Source: Promethearchaeota archaeon
Lineage (GTDB): Archaea; Asgardarchaeota; Lokiarchaeia; Sigynarchaeales; SOKP01
Reading direction: 5' to 3'
DNA length: 15,585 nucleotides
Assembly: GCA_030668025.1 (NCBI GenBank)
Contig: DAOUUT010000054.1
Span: 1-15,585 of the forward strand
Shown here: positions 1,231 through 14,322 of the stretch, in pieces
How the letters are laid out: every line of letters begins with the position of its first letter
Position numbering within the stretch: position 1 is the first letter of the stretch
The notes under the pieces: generated by a model
Database searches by the model: none
What the model saw: the letters and a program-made list of their open reading frames with translations, nothing else
What the model was told of the DNA's origin: nothing
Made by a program: the position numbers and the translations under genes

Positions 1231-1548
1231 TTAAGTTAATTCGTAGCGTTTTCCTTTACCTGAAGCAGCGGAATTTTCTAAAAAACCCTTCTTCTGGTAT
1301 ACCTTTTCTTGCGATTTTCTATATTTATTCGCGTCTTTATAATGATCTTTACAGAGGAAAATTTTATGTTGCTTGTTTTCATAAATTTTTAAATTTGCTT
1401 TCTCAACGTAAGTTTTCCATTTATTTTCTGAAAGCGATCTTATAGCGATCTCTCCACAGTCTTTTACTGAACAGTTTTTTCCCTTACTTGCTGTAGCGCT
1501 AAGGTCTCCTTTCTCTCTAAGTTCTTTAGGTAACTTCAATTTTAACAC
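1231..1548 (-). CDS. Small basic Cys/His protein, possible zinc finger
   Basis: A 105-residue Lys-rich product with four possible metal ligands: Cys26, Cys31, Cys66 and His69 (C-x4-C, about 34 residues, then C-x2-H in CKDH). The spacing resembles a small treble-clef-like or gapped zinc finger, but I do not recognise a named family. The start is a GTG (CAC at 1546-1548 on the plus strand); no ATG is available upstream in frame. It is the only protein gene on the minus strand in the left half of the window and is divergent from the first Nudix gene. The basic composition and metal ligands would suit nucleic-acid binding. That is inference only. Confidence 0.6.
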   Translation of the reverse strand: MLKLKLPKELREKGDLSATASKGKNCSVKDCGEIAIRSLSENKWKTYVEKANLKIYENKQHKIFLCKDHYKDANKYRKSQEKVYQKKGFLENSAASGKGKRYELT

Positions 1549-1622
1549 TTACTAAAAATTTTATTAGGATTGAATATTATTCTCTTAAATTAATTACCAT
1601 CTTAAAATTTTTCCTAAAATTC

Positions 1623-2333
1623 ATGGATTCTTTGAATTTAATTTTCGACGAAAATCTTAATAAGAGCAAACTTTATGACTGCGATTCACCTTTGAGAATA
1701 TTTCTTAAAGACGATTTTTTTACACGTTCAGCAGTGCTTTTTTCTATCGTTCCATACAAAGAAAAACCCTACGAATTAATACTAATACATCGTTCAAATA
1801 GAGGAACAAGCCATAGAGGGGAAATGTCGTTTCCAGGAGGTAAATTCGATGCTAATAACGATAAATCCTTAAAAGACACTGCTTTAAGGGAAACTGAAGA
1901 AGAAATTGGCGTACCAAGGAAAAATATTAAAATTCTTGGTTGTCTTGACGATTTTCCTACAATGACGAAGTATATAATAACTCCTTTTGTAGCAATCATT
2001 GATCAAAATCAAAAATTAATTAAAGAGGATAGAGAAGTTCAGAAAATATTAAAAATTCCTGTCGATTTTTTCTTAAACAAAAGTAATTTTCGAGAACAAG
2101 CTATAGACATTGATGGCAATAAGTTCCCAATATTTTACTTTAATTACATCAATAAAGAAAATGGTAAAAAATATACTATTTGGGGTGCAACGGCTTATAT
2201 GATTGTAACTTTTCTAGAAGAATTATATGGATTTACTCTTTCAAACTTAGGATTGGAGCGATTTAAACTTGATAAAATAAAAGATTTAAAAGAGTATATC
2301 AAATATCGAAACCAAATAACTAAGAAATTTTAA
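1623..2333 (+). CDS. Nudix hydrolase, CoA pyrophosphatase type (copy 1)
   Basis: A 236-residue Nudix protein. The segment around residues 53-73 carries the CoA-specific signature seen in NudL/PCD1-type enzymes: a hydrophobic strand with HRS, then HRGEMSFPGG. The Nudix box follows, with core RETEEEIG at about 89-96 holding the metal-binding glutamates. Family members split CoA or acyl-CoA into 3',5'-ADP and 4'-phosphopantetheine, or act on related nucleoside diphosphate derivatives. The ATG start fits the paralogue, which begins with a near-identical N-terminus (LIFDEN in both). A second copy starts 33 nt downstream, so the pair is probably co-transcribed after a tandem duplication. Substrate assignment rests on motif recognition alone. 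Confidence 0.85.
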   Translation: MDSLNLIFDENLNKSKLYDCDSPLRIFLKDDFFTRSAVLFSIVPYKEKPYELILIHRSNRGTSHRGEMSFPGGKFDANNDKSLKDTALRETEEEIGVPRKNIKILGCLDDFPTMTKYIITPFVAIIDQNQKLIKEDREVQKILKIPVDFFLNKSNFREQAIDIDGNKFPIFYFNYINKENGKKYTIWGATAYMIVTFLEELYGFTLSNLGLERFKLDKIKDLKEYIKYRNQITKKF

Positions 2334-2366
2334 TAATTTAATACAATATCTATAATACTGATACCT

Positions 2367-3035
2367 ATGGATTTAATTTTTGATGAGAACTTTATTAGAA
2401 AGAAGCTTAAAGATTTTAATTCTCCAGATCGACTGGTTATGTCGCACGAAAATTTTACTAATTCTGCCATCGTTTTTCTAATTCTTCCTTACAAGGATAA
2501 ACCGTATGATTTAGTTTTAATTAGAAGAACCAAAAGTAAAACAGATAAGCATTCGGGAGAAATGGCATTTCCCGGAGGTAAATTCGACCCAATGCTTGAT
2601 AAAACTTATTTAGAAACGGCGTTAAGAGAACTCGAAGAAGAACTAGGTGTTTCTAAAACAAGTGTCAATGTTTTAGGCTCTATTGACGACCATCTTACAC
2701 CTAAAGGATTTATTATTACCGCTTTTGTAGCTTATATCAACCAAGATACAAGAATTGTAAAAGAAGAAAACGAAGTAAAAGAAGTTGTAAAAATACCAAT
2801 AGCTTTTTTTGCAAATAAAAAAAACTACAAAGAAAGGGCTTACGATCTTAAAGGAGATCTAATTGGAGTTGGTAAATTTAAATATAAATCCGCAGAAAAT
2901 GAAAAATATGTCATATTTGGTGCGACATCCCATATTATAGTCAACTTTGTTGACAGAATCTATAATATTGGATTAATGTCACCTGGATGTCGACGAATAA
3001 ATTGTGAAGACATTAAAGATAGAATAGTTAGATAA
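2367..3035 (+). CDS. Nudix hydrolase, CoA pyrophosphatase type (copy 2)
   Basis: A 222-residue paralogue of the preceding gene. It shares the N-terminal LIFDEN segment, the CoA-type motif (KHSGEMAFPGG, about 61-71), the Nudix core RELEEELG (about 87-94), and a C-terminal region with an FGAT motif where copy 1 has WGAT. The two differ at many positions, so the duplication is not recent. It is expected to hydrolyse CoA derivatives or related dinucleotide-like pyrophosphates in the cytoplasm. Two copies side by side may have split substrates, for example oxidised or acyl-CoA against free CoA, but the sequence does not show this. The tRNA-Sec gene begins 84 nt after its stop. Confidence 0.85.
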   Translation: MDLIFDENFIRKKLKDFNSPDRLVMSHENFTNSAIVFLILPYKDKPYDLVLIRRTKSKTDKHSGEMAFPGGKFDPMLDKTYLETALRELEEELGVSKTSVNVLGSIDDHLTPKGFIITAFVAYINQDTRIVKEENEVKEVVKIPIAFFANKKNYKERAYDLKGDLIGVGKFKYKSAENEKYVIFGATSHIIVNFVDRIYNIGLMSPGCRRINCEDIKDRIVR

Positions 3036-3074
3036 TATCGAAAATTTAAAATAAACATAAAATTCATTTAAATC

Positions 3075-3083
3075 TATAAATAT
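3075..3083 (+). promoter_or_regulatory. Candidate TATA box for tRNA-Sec
   Basis: TATAAATAT lies about 37-45 nt before the first base of tRNA-Sec. With the usual archaeal TATA-to-start distance this would give a short leader to be removed by RNase P. AT-rich context makes such matches common. Confidence 0.3.
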
Positions 3084-3136
3084 TAAGTATTAACAGTAAA
3101 TCTCTATAATAAATAATTTGGCCCCCGGCGGTCGGA

Positions 3137-3169
3137 ATTTGATTTGATCATTTCGATCTCATACGATAA
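3137..3169 (+). other. Predicted BHB intron in the D stem of tRNA-Sec (33 nt)
   Basis: The pairing around the borders fits a relaxed BHB: central helix GTCG (3131-3134) with CGAT (3164-3167, one G-U), 3-nt bulges GAA (3135-3137) and AAG (3168-3170), and an inner hairpin that includes TGA/TCA and GATC/GATC around loop ATTTC. Cutting after the second base of each bulge joins GTCGGA to GTGGTCTCTGAC, which restores a 7-bp D stem with a 4-nt loop. The outer helix is weak (about 2 bp), so the motif is imperfect. Confidence 0.75.
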
Positions 3170-3227
3170 GTGGTCTCTGACGCTGGGCTTCAAACCCAGT
3201 TATCCTGCGGAGGGATAGGGGTTCGAT

Positions 3228-3257
3228 ATGAAAAGAAATTTGTTCTTTTCGAGAAAA
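3228..3257 (+). other. Predicted BHB intron in the T loop of tRNA-Sec (30 nt)
   Basis: Outer helix is the T stem GGGG/CCCC. The central helix is TTCG (3222-3225) with AGAA (3252-3255), three Watson-Crick pairs plus one G-A. The 3-nt bulges are ATA (3226-3228) and AAT (3256-3258). The inner helix TGAAAAGAA / TTCTTTTCG is 9 bp with a 5-nt loop. Cleavage after the second bulge base gives T loop TTCGATT, exactly 7 nt, with the intron between positions 59 and 60. Confidence 0.82.
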
Positions 3258-3308
3258 TCCCCCTGGGGGCCGCCAAATTAAAGATTTAAGTAATTTCAAG
3301 GGAAATTT

Positions 3309-4676
3309 ATGTTTGACTTTAATAAAATTATTGAATATTTTAAGAACACATCAATTCCACAAAATATATTAGATAGAGGGCAGTTAGTTTTAACTAATTT
3401 CTTAAAACCAATGAAAACGCTATTTGAGCAGAGAAATGTCCCTCAAAAGCCTTGGGGTGACGGTCAAATAGAGTTTTTACTTCAAACGCTTTCAAATATG
3501 GATACCGATAAAGATGGAAAAGCTTCTCGAGTAGGGGAGCGTGAAGCAAGAATTGCATCGAGTTTACACTTAAAAACTTCAAGTGGTTTTTGTCATGGGA
3601 TAGGACGAAGTGGATTCTTAACAGCACCACAACCAAAAGCTCCTGGAGGTTCTATAATGTATGAACTCAGTAATTATTTAGCTCTTAATTTCCTTAGAAA
3701 ATTTGGATTGCCAAATATAAAAAAAGCAATAGTCGTCCCTCAATGCACTGGAATGTCTTTAGCTTTATGTTTAGGGGCTCTCAGACCTAATTGGAATAAA
3801 AAAAACTTAATTAATAAAAGAACTGTAATTGTCCCTCAAATTGACCACAAATCTCTAATAAAAGCAATTAATTTAATGGGAATGAGAATAAAAACAGTTG
3901 AAGGGAAAATTTTTGGGGATGCAGTTAGAATACCAATCGAAGACATTGAAGCTAGTTTAGATAGTGATTGTTTTGCTGTAATCTCTTTAACAAGCTTCTT
4001 TCCTCCTCGAGAACACGACGATATTAAAGAGATTAGCAAATTTACTAAAAAAAACGATCTAGTTCATATAGTTATTAACGCCTATGGTATACAAAGTCCA
4101 GAATGGATGAAATTAATCCGGGTTGGTATAGACGCTGGAAGAGTGGATGCAATTATTCAATCAACTGATAAAAATATTCTTACTCCTGTTGGTGGAGCTA
4201 TAATAGCCTCTCCAAGCGAAGAAATTATAACCAAAATCAGCCAAGCATACGCAGGTCGGGCTTCTGCTGCTCCAATTGTGAATTTTCTTATATCAATGTT
4301 ATCTTTAGGAATAGAGGGGTACCAACAACTCTTAAGAGAACAACAACATAATCGAAAATTGCTAGAAAGCAAATTAAAAAGAGTTGCTGAAAAAATCAAT
4401 GAAAAAGTTCTCGAAGTATTTAATCCAGTAGCTGTTGCCGTGTCTTTAAATAACTTAAAAAAAGAACAGTTGTTTGCGTTAGGGGGGGCTTTATATAACT
4501 TAAGAGTCACTGGTCCACGAGTATATAATCCTGAAGAAAGCGTATTTGGGACTTGTAGTACTGAATATATAACTCCATATATCGTAATGAACGCCGCTAT
4601 TGGGGCAACATCAAAAGATATTATTTCTGCTGTTGAGAGATTTGAAAAAGCCTACGATCAAATAACTCAAAAATAA
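3309..4676 (+). CDS. sepsecS: O-phosphoseryl-tRNA(Sec) selenium transferase (SepSecS)
   Basis: A PLP enzyme that converts O-phosphoseryl-tRNA(Sec) to selenocysteinyl-tRNA(Sec) using selenophosphate; it is the archaeal/eukaryal counterpart of bacterial SelA. The 455-residue length is near the family norm. Family blocks in order: SRVGEREARIAS (about 73-84); HGIGRSG with QPKAPGGS (96-115), which forms the phosphate/PLP-contacting loop; CTGMSLALCLGALR (146-159); NAYGIQS (257-263); QSTDKNILTPVGGAIIA (284-300), where Lys288 is the expected Schiff-base lysine; and AGRASAAP followed by ISMLSLG. These match the human enzyme closely from memory. The ATG has an AAGGG ribosome binding site about 7 nt upstream. 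It sits just after tRNA-Sec, its direct substrate, a clear functional pairing. PSTK and SelD are not in the window. Confidence 0.96.
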   Translation: MFDFNKIIEYFKNTSIPQNILDRGQLVLTNFLKPMKTLFEQRNVPQKPWGDGQIEFLLQTLSNMDTDKDGKASRVGEREARIASSLHLKTSSGFCHGIGRSGFLTAPQPKAPGGSIMYELSNYLALNFLRKFGLPNIKKAIVVPQCTGMSLALCLGALRPNWNKKNLINKRTVIVPQIDHKSLIKAINLMGMRIKTVEGKIFGDAVRIPIEDIEASLDSDCFAVISLTSFFPPREHDDIKEISKFTKKNDLVHIVINAYGIQSPEWMKLIRVGIDAGRVDAIIQSTDKNILTPVGGAIIASPSEEIITKISQAYAGRASAAPIVNFLISMLSLGIEGYQQLLREQQHNRKLLESKLKRVAEKINEKVLEVFNPVAVAVSLNNLKKEQLFALGGALYNLRVTGPRVYNPEESVFGTCSTEYITPYIVMNAAIGATSKDIISAVERFEKAYDQITQK

Positions 4677-9966: not shown

Positions 9967-11034
9967 TTGAATGAAAGCGACTTTTTAGAAATCGATGGTT
10001 CTTTTGGAGAAGGAGGAGGAGCAATCCTACGTCTTAGCGCGGGATATTCGATTCTATTTAACAAACCACTGAGAATAAAAAATATCCGAGCTAATCGTCC
10101 TAAACCTGGTTTAAGATTACAACACTTACTCGGTCTTAAAGCTCTTGCTAATCTAACCAATAGTAAATTAAGCAATTGCAATATTGGAACTGAAGAAATT
10201 ACTTTTATTCCTAATATTAAATCTTTAAAAAGTAAAATACATGTAAAAATCAATACGGCAGCAAGCATAGGATTATTACTCCAACCAATTCAAATTGCGT
10301 GTTTAAGGCTAGTTCAACAGGATAAAATTAATATTATACTCGAAGGTGGAGGTACTTTTGGTAAATGGGCACCTAGCTTAAATTATCTTACTAATGTTAT
10401 CTATCAAATATTTAAAAGATCTGGATTGACAATTAATATAGAAATTAAAAAATTTGGATTTTATCCTAAGGGAGGTGCTCAGACTAATTGTACGATAATT
10501 CCTCCAAAAAATAACCTTAAACCTATTAATCTTACTAATTTAGGTGATGTAGATCTAATCAAAGGGGAAATAGTTTTGACAAATCATCTAAAACGTAATG
10601 GAAACAACATTGCGAATCGAATTAAGAAATCTATTAATATGGAAATAAAGAAAACTTTAGGAATCGAGACAGATATCAAAGATGTTTGGGTAAATTCATT
10701 GAGTCCTGGAGTTGGCCTTTGTTTGTGGGCTTATTCGAACACTGGAGCAATAATATCAACAGGCACTATTTTAGGGGAAAAAAGACTTTCTTCAGAAAAA
10801 TTAGGTAATATTGCTGCTAAAGAAATGATTAAATACATTCAAAACGAAATTCCTGTTGATAAATATCTTAGCGATCAATTAATTCCATTAATGGCTTATG
10901 TTAAAACCCCATCAAGTATAAAAGTATTTGAAATTACGAGTCACACACGAACTAATTTAGAATTAATTAAACTATTTACAGATAAAAGTTATAAAATTTT
11001 AAAATATGATAACCATTATTTAATTGAATACTAA
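9967..11034 (+). CDS. rtcA: RNA 3'-terminal phosphate cyclase
   Basis: Converts RNA 3'-phosphate ends to 2',3'-cyclic phosphates using ATP through an adenylylated-histidine intermediate. The 355-residue length is normal. Family features: the opening IDGSFGEGGGAILRLS (9-24), RPKPGLRLQHLLGLKAL (44-60), the INTAASIGLLLQ block, EGGGTFGKWAP, the KFGFYPKGGA segment, and a C-terminal TSHTRTNLELI in which His326 fits the catalytic histidine. The start is TTG with a GGAG site 7 nt upstream. It ends the run of closely spaced genes, only 2 nt after the Nudix-NMNAT stop. Cyclic phosphate ends are the substrate of RtcB-type ligases that seal tRNA exons in archaea. With six predicted tRNA introns in this window a link to RNA repair or splicing is attractive but unproven. 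Confidence 0.94.
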   Translation: MNESDFLEIDGSFGEGGGAILRLSAGYSILFNKPLRIKNIRANRPKPGLRLQHLLGLKALANLTNSKLSNCNIGTEEITFIPNIKSLKSKIHVKINTAASIGLLLQPIQIACLRLVQQDKINIILEGGGTFGKWAPSLNYLTNVIYQIFKRSGLTINIEIKKFGFYPKGGAQTNCTIIPPKNNLKPINLTNLGDVDLIKGEIVLTNHLKRNGNNIANRIKKSINMEIKKTLGIETDIKDVWVNSLSPGVGLCLWAYSNTGAIISTGTILGEKRLSSEKLGNIAAKEMIKYIQNEIPVDKYLSDQLIPLMAYVKTPSSIKVFEITSHTRTNLELIKLFTDKSYKILKYDNHYLIEY

Positions 11035-14219: not shown

Positions 14220-14322
14220 GCAGACATTGCCTAGCCTGGTACGGCGCCGGCTTGGAGCGGAAATATGGTCCCAGAAAGCCGGTGTGTGAAAGCATTCGGG
14301 GGTTCGAATCCCTCTGTCTGCG
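14220..14322 (+). tRNA. tRNA-Ser (anticodon GGA), class II, one intron
   Basis: Acceptor GCAGACA (14220-14226) pairs with TGTCTGC (14315-14321), with G73 at 14322 as expected for Ser; CCA is not encoded. The D arm is GCC-TAGCCTGGTAC-GGC. The anticodon stem CCGGC/GCCGG holds loop TTGGAG...A with anticodon GGA at 14254-14256 (reads UCC/UCU). The long variable arm GTGT-GAAA-GCAT is the class II mark of tRNA-Ser. T arm is GGGGG-TTCGAAT-CCCTC. A 19-nt insert at the canonical 37/38 site is predicted to be an intron. Confidence 0.93.
14258..14276 (+). other. Predicted canonical 37/38 intron of tRNA-Ser (19 nt)
   Basis: Outer helix is the anticodon stem. The central helix TTGG (14252-14255) pairs with CCAG (14271-14274, one G-U). 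The bulges are AGC (14256-14258) and AAA (14275-14277). Cleavage after the second base of each bulge gives loop TTGGAGA. The inner helix is short and weak. Confidence 0.8.

Follow-up and report, generated by a model that had tools for sequence, protein, structure and literature searches.

In the portions of the literature consulted, an intron-bearing archaeal tRNA-Sec is described once, in a Lokiarchaeota, with an intron of 31 nt in the T arm (PMC5330540 and PMC9499178, citing Mariotti et al. 2016). The gene analysed here, from a window of 15,585 nt (the whole stretch of DNA under study), resembles it in being the same tRNA from the same lineage, with a 7-bp D stem and an intron in the T arm. 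The published gene has one intron as cited, however, whereas the gene in the window also has one in the D stem, and its relatives add forms with a D intron only, a T intron only, an anticodon intron only, or anticodon and T introns together to the single form of that report. The tRNA-Sec genes of Daphnia pulex are also intron-bearing, in the anticodon loop, but they are eukaryotic and, in the part of PMC5330540 covered, have just one intron, located canonically, 3′ of the anticodon.

Several non-canonical introns within one tRNA, as found here, are reported for Thermoproteales and for Atabeyarchaeia and Freyarchaeia (PMC4090602, PMC11291895). The passages covered concern tRNAs in general, and the T-loop site of the window gene matches position 59/60 of these multi-intron tRNAs. 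The D site falls between the sixth and seventh pairs of a D stem of 7 bp. The section of PMC4090602 consulted does not name it among its examples (20/21, 22/23, 25/26 and others), which form an open list; such a site would require a D arm of the tRNA-Sec type. A eukaryotic tRNA with three introns, not a tRNA-Sec, shares with the window gene introns in both D and T arms. Elsewhere in the Asgard archaea, introns occur in 92 to 95% of the tRNAs of three other genomes (PMC11291895, in part), and the tRNA-Sec of some Lokiarchaeia has unusual insertions and deletions, not termed introns in the part of PMC9723677 consulted. The word ‘intron’ is absent from the main texts of PMC11227280 and PMC13188914.

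A D-stem intron in tRNA-Sec was not found in the article listings and portions of articles searched. As far as searched, what is new is the intron in the D stem, the occurrence of two introns in one gene and the frequent change of intron state; the T-loop intron was already known. The first-pass annotation of the window had described introns at both positions as not known for tRNA-Sec; as far as searched, this holds for the D-stem intron and for the combination, but a T-arm intron was published in 2016.

The tRNA-Sec gene beside SepSecS

The tRNA-Sec gene lies at positions 3120-3275 of the window, on the + strand, and is 156 nt long including an encoded CCA. It stands directly upstream of the gene for SepSecS, the enzyme that completes Sec on tRNA-Sec, with 33 bases between the end of the one and the start of the other. 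The features are as follows.

3120..3136, + strand: exon 1 (5′ strand of the acceptor at 3120-3128, the linker CG, and D-stem bases one to six)
3137..3169, + strand: predicted D-stem intron, 33 nt, with a relaxed BHB; absent from relatives
3131-3134 (GTCG, exon) and 3164-3167 (CGAT, intron), + strand: central helix of the D intron, bulges GA^A and AA^G
3170..3227, + strand: exon 2 (end of the D stem, D loop TGGT, anticodon arm with TCA, variable arm, T stem 5′ strand, TTCGAT of the T loop)
3228..3257, + strand: predicted T-loop intron, 30 nt, outer helix GGGG/CCCC; absent from relatives
3222-3225 (TTC(G)) and 3252-3255 ((A)GAA), + strand: central helix of the T intron, bulges AT^A and AA^T
3258..3275, + strand: exon 3 (final base of the T loop, 3′ strands of T stem and acceptor, discriminator G at 3272, CCA at 3273-3275)
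3309..4676, + strand: SepSecS (O-phosphoseryl-tRNA(Sec) selenium transferase; TIGR03531 479 bits, PF05889 390 bits)

Removal of both inserts leaves a body of 90 nt plus CCA, in which all 32 cloverleaf pairs are standard. The acceptor has 9 bp and the T stem 4 bp with loop TTCGATT, and the D arm has a 7-bp stem with a 4-nt loop (GTCGGAG TGGT CTCTGAC). The anticodon stem is 6 bp, with loop CTTCAAA and anticodon TCA, the variable stem is also 6 bp, and the discriminator is G. The 9+4 fold, the D arm, the TCA anticodon, the long variable arm and the discriminator G are all as in archaeal tRNA-Sec. RNAfold returned exactly this cloverleaf for the spliced molecule (−52.1 kcal/mol). The first-pass annotation had proposed the coordinates and length of the gene and the lengths of both inserts, and had held that the two removals restore a 7-bp D stem with loop TGGT and a 7-nt T loop in a 9+4 tRNA-Sec; RNAfold and the pair count bore this out.

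As it stands, the gene is missed by both ARAGORN and Rfam. ARAGORN found no tRNA in the unspliced window, and the Rfam tRNA-Sec model scored 28 bits against a cut-off of 47, over 3155-3271 and with the 5′ end wrong. The intronless tRNA-Sec of genome G016, which has 82 of 90 bases in common with the spliced window gene, scored 62.1 bits.

A CCA is likewise encoded 3′ of the parsed tRNA-Sec genes of relatives, except in G043 (TTT) and G046 (ATC); archaeal tRNA-Sec genes are said to be without an encoded CCA in the part of PMC9499178 consulted. Elsewhere in the window, an RtcA-type RNA 3′-terminal phosphate cyclase (9967-11034, TIGR03399 273 bits) lies roughly 5 kb downstream of the SepSecS gene. 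The window has one more interrupted tRNA gene, at 14220-14322; read by eye as a putative tRNA-Ser(GGA), it has a 19-nt intron at the canonical 37/38 position (14258-14276); it was missed by ARAGORN and scored 40.9 bits with the Rfam tRNA model.

Intron states and their turnover in Lokiarchaeia

A SepSecS search identified 26 loci, the MAGs concerned being titled Candidatus Lokiarchaeota or Lokiarchaeia, with a best identity of 94%. The comparison set comprised the 83 genomes of the Lokiarchaeia class to which the nearest genome, G001, belongs. A tRNA-Sec core pattern matched in 55 of the 83 (G054 is counted, though matched at the wrong place; its actual gene came from the Rfam matches); core pattern, Rfam matches and stretches upstream of SepSecS together assigned a tRNA-Sec in 75 and found none in the other eight (G007, G017, G039, G048, G050, G052, G063 and G084). 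The cut genes of G001, G036 and G074 were read by eye and left out of the computed intron, register and spliced-body tables. The assigned states were:

D and T introns: 22 genomes (in G001 the contig ends within the T intron)
D intron only: 7 genomes
D intron, T end cut off: 1 genome (G074)
T intron only: 2 genomes (G036 was read from two contig ends)
Anticodon intron only: 4 genomes (G046, G054, G059, G061; the lone anticodon-loop insert was judged by eye)
Anticodon and T introns: 8 genomes
Uninterrupted tRNA-Sec: 31 genomes (G041 and G045 from 87-nt Rfam matches)

In total, 30 of the 83 genomes have a D intron and at least 32 a T intron, and no gene in the 75 assigned genomes combined a D with an anticodon intron. 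Among the uninterrupted genes, 28 of 31 share the 90-nt length of the spliced window gene. Because close relatives have the gene with either insert, both or neither, we read the inserts as removable introns. On the same basis a tRNA-Sec with two introns, as first annotated, is the right reading; the alignment of related tRNA-Sec genes that had been proposed as a check found the inserts absent from the uninterrupted genes of 31 of the 83 genomes.

The exons are strongly conserved where the introns are not. The spliced body is identical at 90/90 positions between the window and five congeners (G005, G011, G012, G015 and G023), but their T introns differ from that of the window and among themselves. 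The 30 D-intron genes with a full parse, a number that counts the window and takes G077 twice, all gave 7/7 D-stem pairs and 32/32 cloverleaf pairs on splicing. Intron sequences vary widely outside the hairpin and the BHB register. Assembly error was rejected as a source of the inserts, as the same arrangement occurs in the five congeners, which were matched to five differently named isolates (HM4_B22, 33X4, ABR02, Loki_b31 and CSMAG_2743).

Beyond the class, pattern matches were fetched from 37 genomes and 35 were parsed, with spurious-looking matches left out; the pattern used here is blind to genes with an anticodon intron. In another Asgard family, f27, all 3 parsed tRNA-Sec genes are interrupted at the T-loop site used in the window, and in a further one, f8, none of 32 has a D or T intron. 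Family f1 of the Lokiarchaeia class was the only one in which a D-stem intron was seen. The f27 introns, which lie outside that class, are 30-32 nt long (L266-L268, from G177-G179). Two of the uninterrupted genes within the class (L002 in G041, L005 in G045) exceed the Rfam cut-off, at 66.1 and 64.3 bits, and have a D arm without the usual TGGT loop. A two-intron tRNA-Sec of the anticodon-plus-T-loop type occurs in G018 (L077/L149), matched to isolate bin41; the bin41 MAG has the largest known archaeal selenoproteome, with 19 genes, according to the part of PMC13188914 consulted.

Inserts at the same site are found in other tRNAs. In G015, tRNA-Lys(UUU) and tRNA-Lys(CUU) carry 30-nt T-loop inserts at the tRNA-Sec site (L308, L313), where TTCG/CGAA can pair. 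Among the five congeners, the tRNA read in G015 as Lys(UUU) has a 30-nt T-loop insert at this site in 5/5 and that read in G015 as Lys(CUU) in 3/5. Twelve of the 30 tRNA-family matches in G011 are at least 94 nt long, above the usual size.

To place the intron states on a phylogeny, a SepSecS tree was built with FastTree and rooted at the midpoint, from 70 proteins (69 of the 83 genomes plus the window); it is a gene tree rather than a species tree. The SepSecS of the other 14 genomes was missing, in pieces or not fetched. Pruning of three tips whose intron state was unclear left 67 for the Fitch count. Intron states are scattered on the tree: G024 (D and T) stands beside G016 (none), G083 (D and T) beside G067 (none), and G027 (D and T) neighbours G064 (D). 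The Fitch changes numbered 11 for the D, 13 for the T and 4 for the anticodon intron, against minima of 16, 14 and 8 in 500 label shuffles. As the counts lie under all 500 shuffles, intron states are inherited but labile.

The pair G027 and G064 illustrates how such a change may have arisen. Their flanks, compared over some 300 bases, are identical at 97.6% of positions upstream and 97.3% downstream. Within the gene, the 31-nt T intron and a single T-stem pair are the sole differences, the stem being GGAG/CTCC with the intron and GGGG/CCCC without. In family f1, 14 of 31 genes with a T intron have the GGAG/CTCC stem and 0 of 29 without one do, though these are related genes and not independent; outside f1, one intronless gene (G043) has it. 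This suggests allele replacement rather than plain deletion, the alternative for the pair being a selected double substitution. Extending this, we tentatively propose, as a possibility somewhat short of an even chance, that the introns are exchangeable cassettes, whose state would switch together with the flanking exon bases by recombination between the tRNA-Sec alleles of related species.

The introns may instead persist because of a positive function, for example as a modification guide, in protecting the 3′ half from integrating elements, or as a splicing checkpoint before PSTK. Their frequency in the class is compatible with such a role, and there are precedents in the H. volcanii tRNA-Trp intron, a 2′-O-methylation guide, and in attB disruption (PMC4090602, in part). 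Each intron is missing from close relatives, however, including G016, whose SelD has a TGA; state changes are numerous over the 67 tips, and intron sequence is little constrained apart from hairpin and BHB register. We therefore regard a positive function as unlikely. Since the introns are dispensable, are repeatedly switched on and off in related species, and have same-site counterparts in other tRNAs, they most likely have no essential job.

Splice motifs, folding and processing enzymes

The D intron has a 4-bp exon-intron central helix, GTCG/CGAT with one G-U pair, and 3-nt bulges at both cuts, which makes it a BHB. It is not of the strict hBHBh′ form, as the outer exon-exon helix has 2 bp only; because no more than these 2 bp are available, the motif is classed as relaxed. 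The T-loop motif has the outer helix GGGG/CCCC and both bulges, with a central helix of 3 bp (TTC/GAA) plus a G-A, and appears near-canonical. The annotated 3-nt bulges and 4-bp central helix at both borders thus hold for the D stem, if the G-U is counted, and fall one pair short in the T loop, and the fit implied for the D stem was cleaner than its short outer helix allows.

Comparison across distinct introns was used to examine whether these helices keep their register. With the D central helix placed exactly 2 nt ahead of the 3′ cut, 20 of the 24 distinct introns had 4/4 pairs, against 4 of 24 at the best other register. Exceptions were G077, out of register, and G085 and G086, with 3/4 pairs; in G068 a compensated change has converted GTCG/CGAT to GTTG/CAAT. 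The count of 20 represents few independent events, because most D introns share GTCG/CGAT by descent, and the signal lies in the 4-of-4 count, because 18 of 24 introns pair at least 3/4 at a register 5 nt before the cut. When the D intron was shuffled, 1.7% of the shuffles had a 4-bp helix in the correct register, a figure that is suggestive only. For the T introns, the central helix at the same register had at least 3/4 pairs in 29/29 distinct introns and 4/4 in 13/29; the best other register gave four pairs in 6/29.

Folding energies gave a different picture. The energy model folds the full precursor with the 5′ strand of the D helix joined to its mature partner, and there the D helix had P ≤ 0.10 in all 24 distinct D introns (0.00 in G005). 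In the nascent form it reached P of 0.64 to 0.78 in 5 of the 24 cases, but 0.03 for the D region of the window, which has the G005 sequence. Forcing the D-stem helix costs 4.8 kcal/mol (−57.8 vs −62.6). The T central helix had P of at least 0.66 in the full precursor for 12 of 29 distinct T introns, with a value of 0.04 for the window gene. Folding energy alone, then, predicts neither splice motif in the window gene. We keep the two-intron reading on comparative grounds, against the folding energies.

The energy model would also allow the inserts to be retained in the mature molecule as extra hairpins, giving an expanded tRNA-Sec, as six D-stem pairs can form with the D insert looped out and the T-loop insert folds as a stable hairpin. 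The 7-nt T loop and the 4-nt D loop would then vanish. The inserts drift in sequence and are absent from near-identical genes, while exon pairing is conserved in the BHB register, and the relatives have an EndA with broad-specificity features, described below. Retention is accordingly highly improbable in our judgement, and removal of both inserts is preferred.

EndA domains were found in 82 of the 83 genomes, as two copies in 67, one in 14 and three in 1, with none in the remaining genome. The best match of one G015 protein is A. pernix EndA (3p1z, E 2.8e-34); Tyr, His and Lys are in place, and its KPR loop aligns with the A. pernix loop that bears the broad-specificity lysine. In A. pernix EndA this loop lysine gives broad specificity (PMC6379350, in part). 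Of 20 EndA loci scanned, the motif filter returned 14 alphas, all with Tyr, His and a KPR or KPK loop, and two betas, both without His; the four loci of G043 and G055 gave no row. The pattern for the catalytic Lys matched no EndA, this residue being seen solely where G015 was aligned with 3p1z. Residues and copy number together predict that the enzyme is probably an (alpha-beta)2 heterotetramer of broad specificity. RtcB was found in 54 of 58 genomes.

With high confidence, we consider that the window gene would be the organism's working tRNA-Sec, its two introns removed by cis-splicing through EndA and RtcB. A precursor of at least 156 nt would be transcribed. EndA, probably as the (alpha-beta)2 form, would cut out the 33-nt D intron at the relaxed BHB (GTCG/CGAT, 3-nt bulges) and the 30-nt T-loop intron at the near-canonical BHB, for which the T stem serves as outer helix, and RtcB would ligate the exons. 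Only then would the complete 7-bp D stem and 7-nt T loop exist, and the product would be a 9+4 tRNA-Sec for SerRS, PSTK, SepSecS and EFSec. We infer the cleavage positions, their order and the ligation from sequence. The D intron had also been thought to break an identity element contacted by PSTK; for archaeal PSTK the D stem is described as a minor rather than a major determinant (PMC7609411, in part), and splicing would restore the stem.

Selenocysteine decoding and the role of the interrupted gene

Relatives were searched for the remaining Sec machinery. SelD over the cut-off, with an in-frame TGA, was found in 12/12. In G015 the TGA is read within KIHGUSCK, and the frame has one further TGA, before the likely ATG start. 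EFSec-like matches were present in 12/12, with 2/12 over the curated cut-off, though the model matches other translation factors in all 14 controls; in G005, G008, G011, G012, G015, G023, G031 and G071 the EFSec-like gene is on the tRNA-Sec contig. PSTK-like matches were found in 11/12, all below the curated cut-off, in a 12-genome set with G018 replacing G001. Because of the SelD genes with in-frame TGA, these relatives very probably decode Sec. Two SelD-like genes lie in tandem on the minus strand of L265 (G015, 1357-3829), with one TGA each inside the match, and such tandem pairs also occur in G003, G005, G008, G011, G012, G023, G031 and G071.

These findings bear on whether the window gene is a decayed or interrupted pseudogene, with another, intact tRNA-Sec doing the work. 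The search for second copies covered the genomes of relatives, which leaves this explanation some room. No tRNA-Sec over the Rfam cut-off was found in the 15 genomes with D and T introns among 58 searched (strict filters, 60 candidates per genome), and the five congeners each gave one core-pattern match. Together with the invariant exon body in those congeners, the retention of the gene beside SepSecS, and SelD with TGA in every genome searched, this makes a pseudogene very unlikely. Since relatives in which no intact second copy was seen nevertheless have SelD with TGA, the interrupted gene is very probably the working tRNA-Sec.

Apparent second copies in G036 and G068 were rejected, the double pattern matches being contig ends that overlap one gene. 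Extra matches in G064 (L062) and G054 (L032) had no parse and that in G070 had a spurious one; none is a tRNA-Sec. Only the single-contig genome G077 has two tRNA-Sec genes (L058, L064). Each has a 32-nt D intron, the two introns differing in sequence, and one of the genes adjoins a fragment matching SepSecS residues 1-89.

Since ARAGORN and Rfam both miss the window gene, surveys of Asgard archaea that rely on tRNAs may report too little Sec use. The D intron interrupts the arm that distinguishes tRNA-Sec, so a weak motif should have to be spliced accurately for these organisms to make their selenoproteins, and the same genome set bears on how the Asgard splicing endonuclease recognizes relaxed motifs. 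Close relatives with both, one or no intron form an unusually clean set for studying gain and loss of archaeal tRNA introns, and we regard the gene as a natural experiment in tRNA intron turnover. If the introns are indeed exchanged as cassettes, the gene for a recoding tRNA, found once in almost all genomes, would be a hot spot for the turnover of introns.
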